64,000 bases of DNA from Haloarcula sp. CBA1127 (GTDB lineage Archaea > Halobacteriota > Halobacteria > Halobacteriales > Haloarculaceae). The translations under genes and the position numbers were made by a program. The notes below the pieces were generated by a model that saw nothing but the letters and a program-made list of their open reading frames with translations, did not search any database and was not told the DNA's origin. Shown here in pieces: positions 32,339 to 39,211 of this stretch (its first letter is position 1; the number at the start of each line of letters is the position of its first letter). Location of the stretch: contig NZ_BCNB01000006.1 in NCBI RefSeq assembly GCF_001485575.1, forward strand, positions 434,001-498,000, written 5' to 3'.

Positions 32339-33637
32339 TCAGTTACCGGCTCGTTCGACCAGCGCGGCCGCGTGCTCGCTGGCCCGCTCGCGGACGGCCT
32401 GCTCGTCGAACACCTCGACAGTGCGGTCGCGCATGAGCACCTCGCCGTCACAAACCGTGTGGCGCACGTCGCTCCCGTGGACGGCATAGGCCAGGTGCGA
32501 GACGAGGTCGTGGGCCGGCGTCAGGTGTGGGGCGTCGAGGTCGATGACGGCCAAGTCCGCGTTCGCGCCGATCTCGATGCGGCCGCTGTCGAAGCCCAGT
32601 AGAGCCGCGCCGTTCGCCGTCGCCATTTCGACGACAGTGCCAGCATCGACCGCGCTGGCGTCGTCAGCCGCGAGTTTGCCGATCATCGCCGCGTCGCGCA
32701 TCTCGTCAAACATATCGAGGTCGTTGTTCGAGGCCGCGCCGTCGGTTCCGATACCCACGGTGACACCAGCGTCCAGCAGGTCCTGTACCGGAGCCATCCC
32801 GCTGGCGAGTTTCATGTTCGAGGCCGGGCAGTGAGCAACGCCGGTACCCGTCTCGGCCAGCAGGTCGATTTCACTGTCGTCGACGTGGACGCCGTGGGCT
32901 ACGTACGTGTCGCCGTCCAGCAGGCCGATATCGTCAGCGTAGGCGAGCGGGCGCTGTCCGTGTTCGTCGACGATAGGCATCACCTCGTCGCGCGTCTCGT
33001 TGGCGTGCAGGTGGATCGAAAGGTCGTCCTCAAGCGCCTGTGGGACGAACTCGCGCAGGTATTCCTCGCCGACGGTCGTGAGCGAGTGTGGCTGGAACGT
33101 CGTCCGGACCCGGCCATCAGCCGCACCGTCGAGTTTCCGAGCCACGTCGAGGCTCTCTTCGAGGTCAGACCGCGCGGCCTCGTCGTCCTTGCCGACAGTG
33201 ACTGCCGTAAAGCCAAGCACTGCTCGCATCCCAGCCTGGTCGACGGCGTCCGCGATCTCCTCGACCTCGAAGTACATATCCGACAGCGCCGTCGTCCCCG
33301 ACCGTATCATCTCGACCAGCCCGAGTTCCGCCCCAGCGCGGATGTCGTCGGCGGTCAGTTCCGCTTCGACGGGCCAGACGTCCTCCTGCAGCCAGGCATC
33401 GAGGGGCTTGTCGTCAGCGAGACCGCGAAGCAGTGTCATCGCGACGTGCGTGTGGGCGTTGACCAGACCGGGGATGACCAGGCCGTCGCTGGCGTCGAGT
33501 TCGTCGTCGCCGTCCAGTGTACCCGGTTCGTCGACGGCCACGATGTCGCCGCTGTCCTGTGAAATCAGTACGTCCGCACGCTCGACGGTCAGGTCAGGTC
33601 GGAGGACCTGCCCGCCGGTGACGAGAAGTTCGCTCAT
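32339..33637 (-). CDS. mtaD: amidohydrolase: 5'-deoxyadenosine / S-adenosylhomocysteine deaminase type, 432 aa
   Basis: A metal-dependent TIM-barrel deaminase of the MtaD/DadD (ATZ/TRZ-like) group. Metal ligands and signature: GLVNAHTHVAMTLLRG, IHLHANETRDEV, VAHGVHVDD, VAHCPASNMKLASG, and GIGTDGAASNNDLDMFDEMR. Such enzymes deaminate adenosine-type by-products of SAM chemistry (SAH, MTA, 5'-deoxyadenosine). It lies one gene from ahcY on the same strand, consistent with a shared SAM-salvage role. The frame extends to 33991 but overlaps the divergent transporter; ATG 33637 begins the conserved MSELLVTGGQVL. Confidence 0.9.
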   Translation of the reverse strand: MSELLVTGGQVLRPDLTVERADVLISQDSGDIVAVDEPGTLDGDDELDASDGLVIPGLVNAHTHVAMTLLRGLADDKPLDAWLQEDVWPVEAELTADDIRAGAELGLVEMIRSGTTALSDMYFEVEEIADAVDQAGMRAVLGFTAVTVGKDDEAARSDLEESLDVARKLDGAADGRVRTTFQPHSLTTVGEEYLREFVPQALEDDLSIHLHANETRDEVMPIVDEHGQRPLAYADDIGLLDGDTYVAHGVHVDDSEIDLLAETGTGVAHCPASNMKLASGMAPVQDLLDAGVTVGIGTDGAASNNDLDMFDEMRDAAMIGKLAADDASAVDAGTVVEMATANGAALLGFDSGRIEIGANADLAVIDLDAPHLTPAHDLVSHLAYAVHGSDVRHTVCDGEVLMRDRTVEVFDEQAVRERASEHAAALVERAGN

Positions 33638-33788
33638 GGCGGTGGCTTCGCAACCGCGGGCCTTAGTTCGCCGGGTCCACGCCGTCGTTGTGTGGCGTGT
33701 TGCCACGTTTATCGGCGGGTGTCGCAGTGACAGCAGTGCCTGTTCCGCAGGGGTCTTTCGGCTCCGGCGCGTTCGGATTGGCAAGAGA

Positions 33789-34994
33789 ATGGCGGCGGCA
33801 GAGCAACTCCGACAACGGGTCAACGCCATGCGGCACGGAAGCCCAGGCCGAATGCTGCTTGCCGTCGCTGCCGGCTGGTTTCTCGTTCTCGGGATGCGGT
33901 TTGTCGTCCCTGCGGTGCTGCCGACGATACGCGAGGAGTTCGTCATCTCGAACGCACAGGCAGGGCTCGCAGTCACAGTACTCTGGCTCACATACGCGGC
34001 GGTACAGTTTCCGGCCGGGGTGCTGATCGACCGAATCGGGGAGCGGACACTGCTGGTAGCCGCAGCGTTGCTGTCGGGCGTCGGGCTGCTGGGCTACTTC
34101 TTCGCGCCGGTGTTCTCCCTGTTCCTCATCGCAACGGGCGCGTTTGGGCTCGGAACTGGGGTGTACGGCCCGACCCGCGGGACCGCGCTCTCGCGGACGT
34201 TCGATGTCCGCGAGGGGACCGCCTTCGGTGTCGTAATGGCGGCCGGTTCTCTCGGCGCGGCCACACTGCCTGCCGTCGCCGCGTTCGTCACCACACGGTA
34301 CGGCTGGCGGCTGGCGCTTGCCAGCGCCGCTCCGCTGTTCATCCTTGTCGCCGGCGCGCTCTGGCTCTCAGTCTCGGACCGCCCGACCGGTGAGTCCGAA
34401 CGGAGCCTCCGGCAGGACCTCCGAATAGTCCTCACCGGCTTTCGCAACCGTCGGCTCATGCTGTCGGTCTCCGGAAAGACACTGATGCTGTTTGCCTTTC
34501 AGGCCGTGACAGCGTTTCTCACGACATATCTGGTCACAGTCAGGGACCTCTCACAGGGGACCGCCGGGGCGCTCCTTTCGGTGCTGTTCGTCGGTGGCGC
34601 GCTCTCACAGACGGTTACCGGCCGGCTCGCCGACCGATACGGAACGCCCAGTGTCCTGACGGCTGTCGCGCTCGTCAGTACCGTTCCACTCGTGCTCATT
34701 CCGTCCGTCCGCGGGGTCGTGCCGCTGGCCATCGTCTCCGGCCTCATCGGGGTTCGGATGAGCGTCGGCCCGCTAGCTAACGCCTACATCGTCGATACGC
34801 TGCCTGACACCGCCGAAGGGACCGGCTGGGGCCTGCTCCGGACCGGCTTCTTCGGGATCAGTTCGCTGGGCTCGACGGCCGTCGGTCTGCTGGCCGACCA
34901 GAACCTGTTTGCCGTCGCGTTCTACGGTCTCGCTGGCCTGACGCTGCTGGCCGCGGGTACCTTTGTTGTCCTCCCACGCCGGGACCGCCTGTGA
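33789..34994 (+). CDS. MFS transporter, 401 aa
   Basis: A twelve-helix major facilitator protein. The cytoplasmic loop 2-3 motif is [13 protein letters not shown] (the Asp-x-x-G-x-R pattern) and the loop 8-9 counterpart is [13 protein letters not shown]. The first helix ([20 protein letters not shown]) and [10 protein letters not shown] are typical. It lacks features that define a substrate class. ATG 33789 is chosen because an upstream extension is antisense to the deaminase gene. hisG follows 68 nt later on the same strand. Confidence 0.88.
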
Positions 34995-35062
34995 CGGTTC
35001 CGCCCACAGGCCCGGCCAGCCTGAGGGGAAAGACAGTTGCCCCGCGGCCTGCCAGTAGGCGT

Positions 35063-35911
35063 ATGCGAATCGCCGTCCCCAACAAGGGCCGCCTGCACGA
35101 ACCAAGCGAGGAACTGCTCGAACGGGCCGGCCTCCATCTGGTCGACGGGGCCGACCGCCAACTGCACGCCGATACCGTCGACCCGGACGTGACCGTCCTG
35201 TACGCCCGCGCTGCCGACATCCCCGAGTACGTCGCGGACGGTGCTGCCGACGTGGGTATCACCGGCCTCGACCAAGTCCGGGAGTCCGACACCGACGACC
35301 TCGTCGAACTCCGAGACCTCGATTTCGGCCGCTGTCGCCTCGTTCTTGCCGCACCTGAAGAGAGCGATATCGAGACCGTCTACGACTTCGAGGACGGCCG
35401 CATCGCCACGGAGTTCCCTAAAATCACCCGCCGGTACTTCGACCGGGTCGACGTGGGTGTCGACGTGACCGAAGTGTCCGGCGCGACGGAGCTGACCCCG
35501 CACGTCGACATCGCCGACGGTATCGTCGATATCACCTCGACCGGGACCACGCTCCGTATGAACCGGCTGGCCGTCGTCGACGAAGTACTCGAAAGCTCTG
35601 TCCGCCTGTTCGCCCGCGAAGACACCGCTGAAAACGAAAAGGTCCAGCAGGTCGACACCGCGCTTGGCTCCGTCCTTGCCGCCGAAGACAAACGCTATCT
35701 GATGATGAACGCCCCCGAGGACGCCCTCGATGACGTGGAAGACGTGCTTCCGGGCATGGGCGGCCCCACTGTGATGGACATCGCCGGCTCCGACCAGCTC
35801 GCCGTCCACGCCGTCGTGGAGGAGCGCGCCGTCTTCGAGACGATTAGCTCGCTCAAGGACGTGGGCGCGAGCGATATCCTCGTCACAGAGATAGAACGGC
35901 TGGTTGAATAG
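35063..35911 (+). CDS. hisG: ATP phosphoribosyltransferase HisG (long form), 282 aa
   Basis: Catalyses the first step of histidine biosynthesis, joining PRPP to ATP. The sequence starts [29 protein letters not shown] and the PRPP loop [17 protein letters not shown] are present. The last 75 residues ([20 protein letters not shown]...) form the ACT-like allosteric domain, so this is the HisZ-independent long form, feedback-inhibited by histidine in relatives. It is a singleton here; no other his gene is in the window. Hairpins follow its stop at 35939-36051. Confidence 0.96.
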
Positions 35912-35938
35912 TACCTTTTTACGTCACCCCCTCTCCTC

Positions 35939-36051
35939 GCGCGCTCGTAGAGCGCGCTGTGGGGAGCGGGTTCGCAAAAATCTACGCTAAAAACGACCTC
36001 CGAGTCGCGGCCTGCGGCCGCGCTCGGAGCGAAACCGCGCCTCCGGCGCGG
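35939..36051. repeat. array of three perfect trinucleotide-loop hairpins
   Basis: Downstream of hisG. Hairpin 1, 35939-35957: GCGCGCTC-GTA-GAGCGCGC. Hairpin 2, 35998-36029: CTCCGAG then CGCGGCC-TGC-GGCCGCG then CTCGGAG, one unpaired T. Hairpin 3, 36035-36051: CCGCGCC-TCC-GGCGCGG. A CAAAAATCTACGCTAAAAACG linker separates the first two. Non-coding; possible terminator or mobile palindromic element. Confidence 0.8.
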
Positions 36052-36118
36052 TATGCACCACACTCCGCTCCGCGCCCGCATTCCACAGACACCCTCACCT
36101 CATTCCCAGCTCAGAGAG

Positions 36119-36508
36119 TCAAAAGAACATGAAAATGTTGTTTAGCGCGAACCCGAGCACCGCCGCAAACGCCAGATGCAGCGCCACGAGTGGGGCCGTC
36201 GAGCGGGTCGACAGCCGGTAGGAGAGGCTGATTGCGATGCCGTCGGCGATGAGGGTGAGAAGCAGGACGACCGCGACGCCGAGATCGGCCGAGACAACGC
36301 CGGACTCGACGCCCCAGCGCTGGAGGATGAGCGAGACGATTGCCGGCGCAAGAGCAGCCTTAGCGGCGAGTTGGCTCGGCACGTCGCCGATAAAGAACGT
36401 CGCAGCCAAGTGGAGCGTCAGGGCGTAGAAGAGCCAGGTGACGAGGACAGTCACGAGGACCGCGAGGAGACCACCGCCGGTGAGGCTGGAGAACCCGGAC
36501 TGGAGCAT
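36119..36508 (-). CDS. four-helix membrane protein, 129 aa
   Basis: From ATG 36508, MLQSGFSSLTGGGLLAVLVTVLV opens the first of four hydrophobic helices, followed by LHLAATFFIGDVPSQLAAKA, APAIVSLILQRWGVES, ADLGVAVVLLLTLIADGIAI and ALHLAFAAVLGFALNNIFMFF. It looks like a conserved haloarchaeal membrane protein; I have no functional clue. It is divergent from the tRNA methyltransferase gene. The frame upstream to 36742 overlaps that gene and is discarded. Confidence 0.75.
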   Translation of the reverse strand: MLQSGFSSLTGGGLLAVLVTVLVTWLFYALTLHLAATFFIGDVPSQLAAKAALAPAIVSLILQRWGVESGVVSADLGVAVVLLLTLIADGIAISLSYRLSTRSTAPLVALHLAFAAVLGFALNNIFMFF

Positions 36509-36595
36509 ACTCGGGGTTCGGCGGCCGCTCGCTTGTGCGTTTTGTTCCCGAGCGCGACCGGCACGCTCATAGCCGCTCGCCCACACCGCTCGGGC

Positions 36596-37627
36596 GTGTA
36601 CGTCCTCGAACTCGGCGGGCAGGACGACGCGTTCGCGCGGCAGGAGGCCGCAAGCGCCGCGAGCGCCGTCGACGTGCTCGCCCCCGGACTGGCGACAGCA
36701 CGGGGTATCAGCGACCGCGTTCGCCACCTCGCGTTTACCCACCGGGCCTGTGACCTGCTCGGAACCTCGGACCCAGACATCGAAAGTGCCGCCGAGTTGC
36801 TATCGGCCGCGACCATCGACCGCGAGGGGAGTGTCGCCGTGCGTGCGGTCGACGTGCGAGCGAGCACTGGCATCGACACCCAACAGGCCGAACGGACGCT
36901 TGGCGGCGTGCTCACCGACCGTGGCTTTCCCGTCGACCTCGACAACCCAGACCACGTCCTCTACGCCTATCTCTCGGACCCCGACGGCGACGAGGAGGGC
37001 GGGACCGGCGAGGCCTGCTGTGCGCTGGGCTGGCTTGCCGCCGAGAGCGTGCGGGACTTCGGGAGCCGCCAGCCGACGGACCGTCCGTTCTTCCAGCCCG
37101 GCAGCATGGACCCACTCGAAGCCCGCGCACTGGTCAACATCGCCGGAGCCGGTCCGGACGCAACGATACTGGACCCGATGTGTGGCACCGGTGGCCTCCT
37201 GCTAGAGGCGGGGCTGGTTGGGGCCGACGTGGTCGGCGGCGACGCACAGGAAAAAATGGTCTCGGGGACGCGCAAGAACTTAGCCTACGCACTCAACGGC
37301 GACGGCCACCCCAACAGGGACGCCTATCCCGAACCGGGCGAGTGGGGGGTGTTCCGGTCCGACGCGTCCGCACTGCCAGTGGCCGACGACGCCGTCGATG
37401 CCGTCGTCTTCGACGCCCCCTACGGTCGTCAGTCCCGTATCGAGGGGGACCTGGCTCCACTCGTGTCCGGTGCGCTCGGCGAAGCCGCCCGCGTCGCAGG
37501 GCGGTGCGTCCTCGTCGCCGACCGCGACTGGCGCGAGGCCGCGACCGGCGCGGGCTGGGCTGTCACTGATTACTTCAAGCGGCGCGTTCACCGCTCACTG
37601 GTCAGGCACATCCACGTTCTTGAGTGA
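36596..37627 (+). CDS. tRNA (guanine(10)-N2)-dimethyltransferase, 343 aa
   Basis: Archaeal Trm-G10 (aTrm11) forms m2G10 or m22G10 in tRNA. The N-terminal half has a THUMP-like RNA-binding region (FTHRACDLLGT; YAYLSDPDGDEEG). The Rossmann methyltransferase carries motif I ILDPMCGTGGLLLEAG and motif IV FDAPYGRQSRIEGDL, the DPPYG-type motif for exocyclic-amine methylation. It ends VHRSLVRHIHVLE. No ATG lies near the conserved start, so I use GTG 36596 (VYVLELGGQDD), which leaves a short leader after the GTTTTG box near 36540. Confidence 0.9.
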   Translation: MYVLELGGQDDAFARQEAASAASAVDVLAPGLATARGISDRVRHLAFTHRACDLLGTSDPDIESAAELLSAATIDREGSVAVRAVDVRASTGIDTQQAERTLGGVLTDRGFPVDLDNPDHVLYAYLSDPDGDEEGGTGEACCALGWLAAESVRDFGSRQPTDRPFFQPGSMDPLEARALVNIAGAGPDATILDPMCGTGGLLLEAGLVGADVVGGDAQEKMVSGTRKNLAYALNGDGHPNRDAYPEPGEWGVFRSDASALPVADDAVDAVVFDAPYGRQSRIEGDLAPLVSGALGEAARVAGRCVLVADRDWREAATGAGWAVTDYFKRRVHRSLVRHIHVLE

Positions 37628-37716
37628 CCATACGTCCACTTTATCTGGACAAGCGTTGTCTTTTATTTCGGTATAAGCAAAGTTTATGCCGTGACAAATG
37701 CTAATTAGTCTCAAGC

Positions 37717-37872
37717 ATGCCAACGTGGTCAGACCCCGCCCCATGCGACGACGACGAACAGCTGTTTGAATGCCCGGACTGCGGGAAGCGCCTCTGTAGC
37801 GAGCGCTCGACGGTCTCCTGTGGCCGCTGTGAGACAGAAATGCAGAACCTCAGCGTCCCTCGGCCGGAATAA
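37717..37872 (+). CDS. rubrerythrin-like zinc-ribbon protein, 51 aa
   Basis: A 51-residue protein with two CxxC pairs, CPDCGKRLC and CGRC, ending MQNLSVPRPE. This matches a small haloarchaeal family annotated as rubrerythrin-like domain proteins, which I recognise by the SDPAP start, the zinc ribbon and the -MxNxxVPRE tail. A TTTATGCC box centred about 32 nt before ATG 37717 fits a very short leader. Role unknown; zinc microproteins of this type are numerous in haloarchaea and often regulatory. Confidence 0.8.
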   Translation: MPTWSDPAPCDDDEQLFECPDCGKRLCSERSTVSCGRCETEMQNLSVPRPE

Positions 37873-37894
37873 AGCCTGTCCGCGTTTTTGCTAG

Positions 37895-38434
37895 TTAGTT
37901 CGACAGGAGTGCAATCGCCCGCTCGGCGTCGCCGTCCATCCGCTCCAGCAGCGACCGGACCCGGTCCCGGGCTGTGTCGTCGCAGTCGGCCAGCACCATC
38001 CCCTCATCTGGCTGGCCGTACACGACGCTGGCTCCGGCGGGCGCGGCGAGCACTGCAGGGAGCGTGGCGAGGTCCTCCTCACCGTCGACATCCAGCAGTG
38101 TCGTCTCGTCGCTGTCGATACCGCCTCGAAGCGCAGTAAGCAGTTCAGCGGTGAGCGTCGCGGCCGGGTTGTCGACCGAAAGCGTCCGGTCGAAGCCGCT
38201 GATTGCCGCTGACACGTCCGCGTCGACAGCCGAGCGTTTGGTCCGTTCGTCGACCAGCGCGAGGTCGGGCGTCCGCCCGGCCTCGATGAGATGGTACGTG
38301 ACCATGTCGCCGACGGCGATGATTGGGTTGCCGGCGTCAGATAGCAGCGCCGCTGTGTCAGTGTAGATACGTCCGAGCGGTTCTTTCAGTTCGTGCCGCA
38401 GGTCACTCGGGAGTTCGAGAACGACGTCGGACAC
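37895..38434 (-). CDS. GTP-dependent dephospho-CoA kinase (DUF359), 179 aa
   Basis: Archaeal enzyme that completes CoA synthesis by phosphorylating dephospho-CoA with GTP, unrelated to bacterial CoaE. Diagnostic stretches: LKEPLGRIYTDTAALL, NPIIAVGDMVTYHLIEAGR, DLALVDERTKRS, VDNPAATLTAELL, and VDGEEDLATLPAVL followed by VYGQPDEGMVLA. It starts at GTG 38434, one base after the spt4 stop, and is the last gene of the aIF2-gamma / PIN / rpoE1 / spt4 operon, a frequent archaeal order. Confidence 0.93.
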   Translation of the reverse strand: MSDVVLELPSDLRHELKEPLGRIYTDTAALLSDAGNPIIAVGDMVTYHLIEAGRTPDLALVDERTKRSAVDADVSAAISGFDRTLSVDNPAATLTAELLTALRGGIDSDETTLLDVDGEEDLATLPAVLAAPAGASVVYGQPDEGMVLADCDDTARDRVRSLLERMDGDAERAIALLSN

Positions 38435-38435
38435 G

Positions 38436-38633
38436 TTAGCGGACTTTCAGCGCGTACTTGCCCGGCTCGGTCACTTCCATCTCCTCGGCGATGTCGGAGC
38501 GCTCCGGGTGCGCGATGACGACGTAGCCGGCCCAGTCCTCGGTCAGTGCAGTGCCGCCGCAGGCCTCACACTGGCTTTCAATCTCCGCGCTCTGGACGCG
38601 GTGACAGTCGCGACAGACGAGTCGGTCCGCCAT
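38436..38633 (-). CDS. spt4: transcription elongation factor Spt4, 65 aa
   Basis: Zinc-binding partner of Spt5; the heterodimer clamps RNA polymerase for processive elongation. The zinc ribbon is CRDCHRVQ plus CEACGGT, and the Spt5-facing strand is WAGYVVIAHPERSDIAEEM. It ends GKYALKVR as in other archaeal Spt4. Its ATG overlaps the rpoE1 stop by one base (TGATG). The older name is RpoE''. Confidence 0.95.
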   Translation of the reverse strand: MADRLVCRDCHRVQSAEIESQCEACGGTALTEDWAGYVVIAHPERSDIAEEMEVTEPGKYALKVR

Positions 38634-39211
38634 CAGCTATCACCGGCTTCCGCCGTCCCTTCACGGCGCTCGCGCTCCTCTTGGAGCCAGCCGTGCTTGC
38701 CCAGGCCGACCTGTTTCGCCGTCAGGCCGATCTTGGAGTCACGCGGGTTGCGCTCGTCGATGCTCTTGGTGACGATACGCGCCCGGACGGCGTCACCGAC
38801 GGTGAGCGTCCGGTTGGACTCGCGGGAGGCGAGTTGCTGGTTCTCCTCGTCGTAGGCCAGATACTCGTCTGAGATCTGGGAGACGTGGAGCAGACCGTCG
38901 ACCGGCCCGATGCCGATGAAGGCCCCGAAGTTGACGACCTCGACGACCTCCCCGTCGACCACTTCCTGCATCTGTGGGTCGAACGTGAGGGCGTCGAACT
39001 CGGCCTCGTAGTAGACGCCGGGCTTGTTCGGCAGCACAGCACCGGTACCGATGTCGTGGACCTCGATGACGGAGACGACGCTGCCGACGTCCTCGTCCAT
39101 TCGTCCTTCGAGCTTCTCTTGCAGGAGCCGTTTGACCAGCCCCGGACTGACCTCCGCCAGAAAGCGTGGCGGGACTTCGACCGTATCGCGTAGGCGTACC
39201 CGTTTATACAT
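38633..39211 (-). CDS. rpoE1: DNA-directed RNA polymerase subunit E' (Rpo7), 192 aa
   Basis: The stalk subunit homologous to eukaryotic Rpb7, working with Rpo4. The N-terminal RNP-like domain starts MYKRVRLRDTVEVPPR; the S1 domain is EVVNFGAFIGIGPVDGLLHVS, followed by ARIVTKSIDERNPRDSKIGL. A charged tail (EERERREGTAEAGDS) is appended. It is coupled to spt4 by a one-base overlap. The TTATACAT sequence lies directly at the ATG, so transcription probably comes from further upstream in the operon. Confidence 0.96.
   Translation of the reverse strand: MYKRVRLRDTVEVPPRFLAEVSPGLVKRLLQEKLEGRMDEDVGSVVSVIEVHDIGTGAVLPNKPGVYYEAEFDALTFDPQMQEVVDGEVVEVVNFGAFIGIGPVDGLLHVSQISDEYLAYDEENQQLASRESNRTLTVGDAVRARIVTKSIDERNPRDSKIGLTAKQVGLGKHGWLQEERERREGTAEAGDS

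Follow-up and report, generated by a model that had tools for sequence, protein, structure and literature searches.

A dispersed palindromic repeat with a putative terminator core at gene ends of Haloarcula and its relatives

The element behind hisG

The window (i.e. the whole 64,000-nt stretch of Haloarcula DNA analysed here) contains hisG and, converging on it, a gene encoding a DUF7473 protein, both assigned by Pfam. Between the two, the initial annotation had marked three adjacent perfect hairpins with loops GTA, TGC and TCC. All three are present, with stems of 8, 14 and 7 bp, but the word perfect does not hold: HP2 carries a bulged T at 36005, and the apex of HP1 tops a longer, imperfect stem. 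The hairpins (35939–36052) are parts of one larger element, spanning ~35911–36056, with the following layout.

35909–35911, plus strand: stop codon TAG of hisG (HisG by Pfam)
35912–35921, plus strand: TACCTTTTTA, the conserved 5' end, with T5 at 35916–35920 (T5C in most type B copies, see below)
35926–35971, plus strand: HP1 palindrome, with a variable outer stem, a conserved internal loop (UC / UGU) and an apex
35976–35980, plus strand: first A5, able to pair with T5 at 35916–35920; reads T5 on the minus strand
35981–35993, plus strand: TCTACGCT, spacer plus second A5 (35989–35993)
35998–36029, plus strand: HP2, 14 bp (7+7), bulged T36005, loop TGC
36030–36056, plus strand: GAAA-type linker, HP3 (36034–36052) and terminal GTATGC, a part that only some copies have
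36119–36508, minus strand: convergent neighbour gene (DUF7473 by Pfam), stop at 36119, 3' end facing the element

The element starts at the last base of the hisG stop codon, and its T5 sits 4 nt past that codon, so a T stretch is present directly downstream of the gene. The 8-bp apex of HP1, GCGCGCTC-GTA-GAGCGCGC (35939–35957), is only the tip of a stem that contains a conserved U•Y mismatch and a bulged U, and to which outer U5/A5 pairing adds. HP3 has 7 bp around its TCC loop (36035–36051), or 8 bp counting the A-T pair 36034/36052. On the minus strand, the first and second A5 become two T5 tracts. When the 199-nt region was folded as RNA, none of 200 shuffled sequences was as stable (z = –4.63). 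The window holds one copy of the element and no tRNA or tmRNA. Either A5 tract (within 35976–35993) can pair with the single T5 (within 35911–35920).

Family census and element architecture

A BLASTN search of the home genome with positions 35912–36100 returned 7 places, and in gene-sense orientation these copies start just past a stop codon. With a covariance model, 14 copies in sense orientation reached E < 1e-3, and one further, weak copy lies behind a thermosome gene (chaperonin by Pfam). The exact core CCACNTTTTTN(25–55)AAAAACGTGG occurs 12 times, compared to 0 for the reversed-pattern control. Searching for the A5-spacer-A5 motif, whose reversed control gave 3 matches at 3 mismatches, added three copies and two degenerate ones. 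In total, the genome carries at least 20 copies, all of them on contig C6, the main chromosomal contig (3.12 of 4.36 Mb); under even placement, the chance of 20/20 on this contig is 0.0013.

We then surveyed the class. The exact core is present in 77 of 391 genomes and 23 of 86 genera, including 24/24 genomes of the home genus, with sporadic presence in other families; the control pattern matched in one genome. No element match was seen in plasmids, and viral contigs contained no exact match to AAAAACGTGGGCGAAAAAG. Similar arrays thus exist elsewhere in the genome and the class, bearing out the initial proposal that the three hairpins are palindromic repeat units: the array is a member of a dispersed repeat family. 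No result spoke for or against the other two initial suggestions, a protein-binding array and RNA processing sites.

In gene-sense orientation, copies follow a recurring order of T5, palindrome, A5, 8-nt spacer, A5, HP2, GAAAC-type linker, HP3 and GTATGC-type end, with the third hairpin often, not always, present and a total length of ~110–150 bp. The bulge seen at T36005 of HP2 recurs in other copies. This order is common to two main types, A (TACCTTTTTAC ... CAAAAATCTACGCTAAAAACGA), to which the window copy belongs, and B (CCACCTTTTTC ... GAAAAACGTGGGCGAAAAAG). The second A5 tract of type B, GAAAAAGG, is a perfect complement of CCTTTTTC, making two mutually exclusive pairings possible. A further linker type, AAAAATCTGGACCAAAAAG, replaces the type A/B linkers at two loci (L057, L113), and at two others (L258 and L288 of genome G115) extra hairpins enlarge HP1 in otherwise normal elements.

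Stem sequences differ between copies and species, and pairing stays. Across seven copies, both partners have changed in 5 of 21 pairs, and the covariation score was reached by 0/500 shuffles; slid-structure controls scored lower than the chosen structure, which was derived from the same seven copies and is hence favoured on cells paired. Within the changing stem, the internal loop CC-U-C-G / C-U-G-Y-GG is kept, leaving room for putative protein binding. For larger counts, we compiled 190 copies, 176 of type B and 14 of type A, which come from 182 loci. One caveat is that these copies are not independent, as orthologous copies and arrays are included; type B copies were collected via the conserved core, and 26 pattern matches were excluded for lack of a GAAAA in the 12 nt that follow. 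On first pass, wobble pairs in HP1 seemed skewed (43 G•U versus 12 A•C), but the G•U excess comes from one conserved position, the remainder being 11 versus 12. Wobble pairs therefore give no strand of action. Counts for HP2 (2 versus 6) and HP3 (2 versus 5) are too small for such a reading.

Gene-end placement and duplicated gene tails

To describe the context of the element, we compared 186 copies (the other 4 of the 190 were excluded, as genes were not called to both sides of them) with 195 element-free gaps of at least 50 bp in the same sequences. Based on gene calls from a simple and crude codon-based caller, which called a wrong gene beside the window copy, convergent genes surround the element in 65/186 cases versus 15/195 for the gaps (P = 4e-11). 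Divergent genes are rare around the element (7/186 versus 61/195, P = 3e-13), and tandem genes make up 114/186 and 119/195, respectively. Where an upstream sense gene exists, it ends within 5 nt of the element in 52 of 108 copies, and one copy begins no more than 3 nt from where a tRNA-Ser gene ends. In 73/186 cases, the element is antisense to both neighbours.

Comparison of the 400 nt on either side of each copy revealed exact direct repeats flanking the element. Repeats of at least 14, 17 and 20 nt were found at 77, 69 and 60 of the 190 copies (longest, 102 nt), versus 1, 1 and 0 of 190 when flanks were mismatched. In these repeats, the 3' tail of the HP2-side gene, which runs towards the element, is found again beyond it; such a gene is present in 66 of 69 repeat-flanked contexts. 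By gene end, tail repeats occur for 61 of 134 antisense neighbours and 0 of 112 sense neighbours, compared to 6 of 330 gene ends not counted near an element (one of the six lies in an array locus). In this control set, a 26-nt gene-tail repeat not counted near an element was seen in four genomes (L016, L062, L136, L190). Among the 52 copies abutting a sense stop codon, tail duplication was found in none, and the flank comparison revealed none for the window copy behind hisG.

In 52 simple cases, the direct repeats have a median length of 58.5 nt (19–235) and the unit between them a median of 112.5 nt, whereas a MITE or canonical transposon makes a short target duplication of fixed length. The codon analysis leaves out one repeat whose reading frame is unclear. 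In 45 of 63 clear-frame cases, one end of the repeat lies at –11 to +8 nt relative to the stop codon; the outer tail copy retains a stop codon there in 49/63, a different stop in 17. Differences between tail copies number 30, 16 and 102 at codon positions 1, 2 and 3. This bias argues against a simple, neutral target-site duplication, yet gene conversion from the gene could explain it too. The repeats may also be remnants of a replaced gene, a model that was considered and is not needed.

The citrate synthase gene illustrates the behaviour of these tails. A tail-element-tail arrangement is present in 6 of 30 loci, with outer and inner tails 0.94–1.00 identical within a genome and 0.75–0.86 between genomes, apart from one pair at 0.96. 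In 5 of 6 species, the end beside the element departs from the inner copy in much the same manner. These comparisons suggest older duplications whose copies gene conversion has kept similar, while the element-side end has probably escaped it. In other genomes, element and gene tail occur together in tandem arrays; those at L196, L214, L150, L047 and L244 have a period of ~120–200 bp. At L104 (1501–1569), the repeat flanking the copy resembles the 3' part of a tRNA gene, and ARAGORN puts a tRNA-Lys ~120 nt upstream.

Presence and absence among relatives can be seen at hisG and at one other site. We found hisG in 31 of 32 genus genomes and retrieved 30 loci (G395 was left out), of which 29 were readable (L099 lies at a contig edge). 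Sorted by eye, 13 of the 29 have a full type A element, each beginning on the stop codon and with stem sequences that vary from species to species but are still paired. One locus has an internal deletion, 3 have T5 plus a 5' remnant, and 1 has a 3'-hairpin remnant. In the remaining 11 of 29 the element is absent, and hence it is not essential behind hisG. At L080, L081 and L087, the hairpins are gone and T5 is still there. From these states, the element is a long-standing resident behind hisG that has been repeatedly lost, with T5 outlasting the hairpins in three cases.

For the other site, the flanks of a Haloarcula copy with duplicated tail (L183) were joined and searched across the genus. 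The home genome and many other Haloarcula species have an empty site, seen as a contiguous 432-nt match, and in three genomes the match is split around an element. In one of these three (G083), compared by eye, the outer flank and outer tail resemble the empty site of another species (G106), and the inner tail matches the genome of the L183 locus, a pattern that exchange of the element through recombination inside the tail would produce.

Function, origin and relation to known repeats

We consider it most likely, with a probability of roughly 0.6, that the element works as a putative bidirectional transcription terminator at gene ends of Haloarcula and its relatives. This reading is favoured by the T5C/T5 tracts on both strands, together with the gene-end and convergent-gene placement. 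A polymerase leaving hisG would meet T5 directly behind the stop codon, and one coming from the convergent gene would meet HP3, HP2 and then two T5 tracts. On this reading, the elements would have entered by insertion events and, where an antisense neighbour was the target, insertion would have left a duplicate of that gene's tail. The claim that the hairpins are unlike a simple terminator stands as to form; site, convergent enrichment and T5/T5C tracts nevertheless suggest a terminator-like module acting in both directions. In a Haloferax volcanii reporter, T5C ended 95% of transcripts (PMC7237163, excerpted text), and by analogy T5 tracts may well end transcription in Haloarcula. In 136 of the 176 type B copies, which were collected with a search pattern that includes T5, the base after the sense T5 is C; the window copy, of type A, reads TTTTTA rather than TTTTTC. 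T-stretch (T5C) terminators of Haloferax are alike in having their tracts at gene ends, and according to the same excerpts hairpins also lie upstream of some termination sites. Unlike those terminators as excerpted, the tracts here lie on both strands of a dispersed, palindromic, sequence-conserved module. A bacterial-type intrinsic terminator has a GC hairpin with a T run after it; the minus strand reads in this order, HP2 coming before two T5 tracts, and on the plus strand T5 precedes HP1 and does not follow it. Termination thus leaves the retention of HP1 unexplained, because the sense-strand T5 lies before this palindrome.

Alternatively, the element could belong to the sense gene's 3' UTR as a structured RNA acting in cis, serving stability or protein binding; HP1 would then be transcribed and U5 would pair with A5. 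Pairing kept across copies, the conserved internal loop with its adjacent conserved U•G wobble (32 copies) and the adjacency to a sense gene are consistent with such an RNA. We regard it as improbable, however, given the lack of wobble strand bias outside that position, the 73/186 copies antisense to both neighbours, and the Rfam covariance models, which gave 0 matches at E ≤ 1 in positions 33000–39000 of the window, around the hisG copy. Pairing could also be kept by mutation rather than by selection on RNA or DNA structure. Quasi-palindrome correction by template switching is a mutational mechanism, and it would account for the nearly complete Watson–Crick pairing (1782 pairs in HP1 across 190 copies), the great rarity of G•U outside one position and the fast turnover of stem sequence. 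It would also erase the internal-loop mismatches (TC 31, TT 15), which instead persist; we think it very improbable as the explanation.

Dispersed copies, empty sites, tandem arrays, direct repeats of at least 17 nt at 69/190 copies and sporadic presence in other families speak for a further reading, in which the element is a selfish, non-autonomous mobile element (MITE-, REP- or SMR-like) that survives only at gene ends, any terminator activity being incidental. This seems rather unlikely to us, as all home-genome copies lie on the main chromosome contig with none found in plasmids or viral contigs, the T5/A5 core and internal loop are conserved, and no target duplication of fixed length is seen. 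We also tentatively propose, with the odds against it, that the element represents a new class of mobile element in haloarchaea. It would be a portable terminator for both directions whose entry at a gene end duplicates 20–130 nt of the host gene's tail, one boundary of the duplicate falling close to the stop codon. Gene conversion would then make the two tails evolve together, and they could expand into arrays.

Several known systems resemble the element in part. Palindromic REP/BIME sequences are dispersed in bacterial genomes, at the 3' ends of genes and in the gaps where genes converge, and in these general features the element resembles them. To our knowledge, a T5/A5 core and gene-tail duplications are not features of REPs. 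Integrative elements that regenerate the 3' end of their target gene are flanked by direct repeats of that 3' end, as is the element. Unlike them, it has only ~110 bp between repeats (no room for an integrase), is associated with many protein genes and has repeats of 19–235 nt. No terminal inverted repeats, as in MITEs, were seen by eye in the element boundaries inspected.

The nearest described haloarchaeal elements, judging from the excerpted text of PMC3119063, are the SMRs, PATEs and MITEs of Haloquadratum walsbyi, which are short, transposase-free repeats. Some SMRs are of similar length (~110 bp), and PATEs carry palindromes as the element does. In the excerpts, PATEs and SMRs are described without target duplications, in contrast to the flanking repeats found here, and MITEs have inverted terminal repeats, whereas the element has long, variable direct repeats of gene tails. 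On these descriptions, we file it as a dispersed palindromic repeat with a terminator-like core, set apart from SMRs and PATEs by the direct repeats that flank many copies. Haloviral HF1-type intergenic repeats were ruled out, being AT-rich and having promoter activity in the excerpted description (PMC7230728), unlike the element. A full-text search for AAAAACGTGG gave papers unrelated by title among the matches listed, and among the papers listed from the open-licence PMC literature no title or abstract start described the element.

Tail duplications that end near stop codons are a footprint that we could match to no known insertion mechanism. Since related species have occupied and empty sites, this mechanism is directly testable. 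If our reading is true, the convergent gene ends of haloarchaea would share a stop signal that is dispersed, interchangeable and active in both directions, and terminator sequence could pass between genes and species as a unit.
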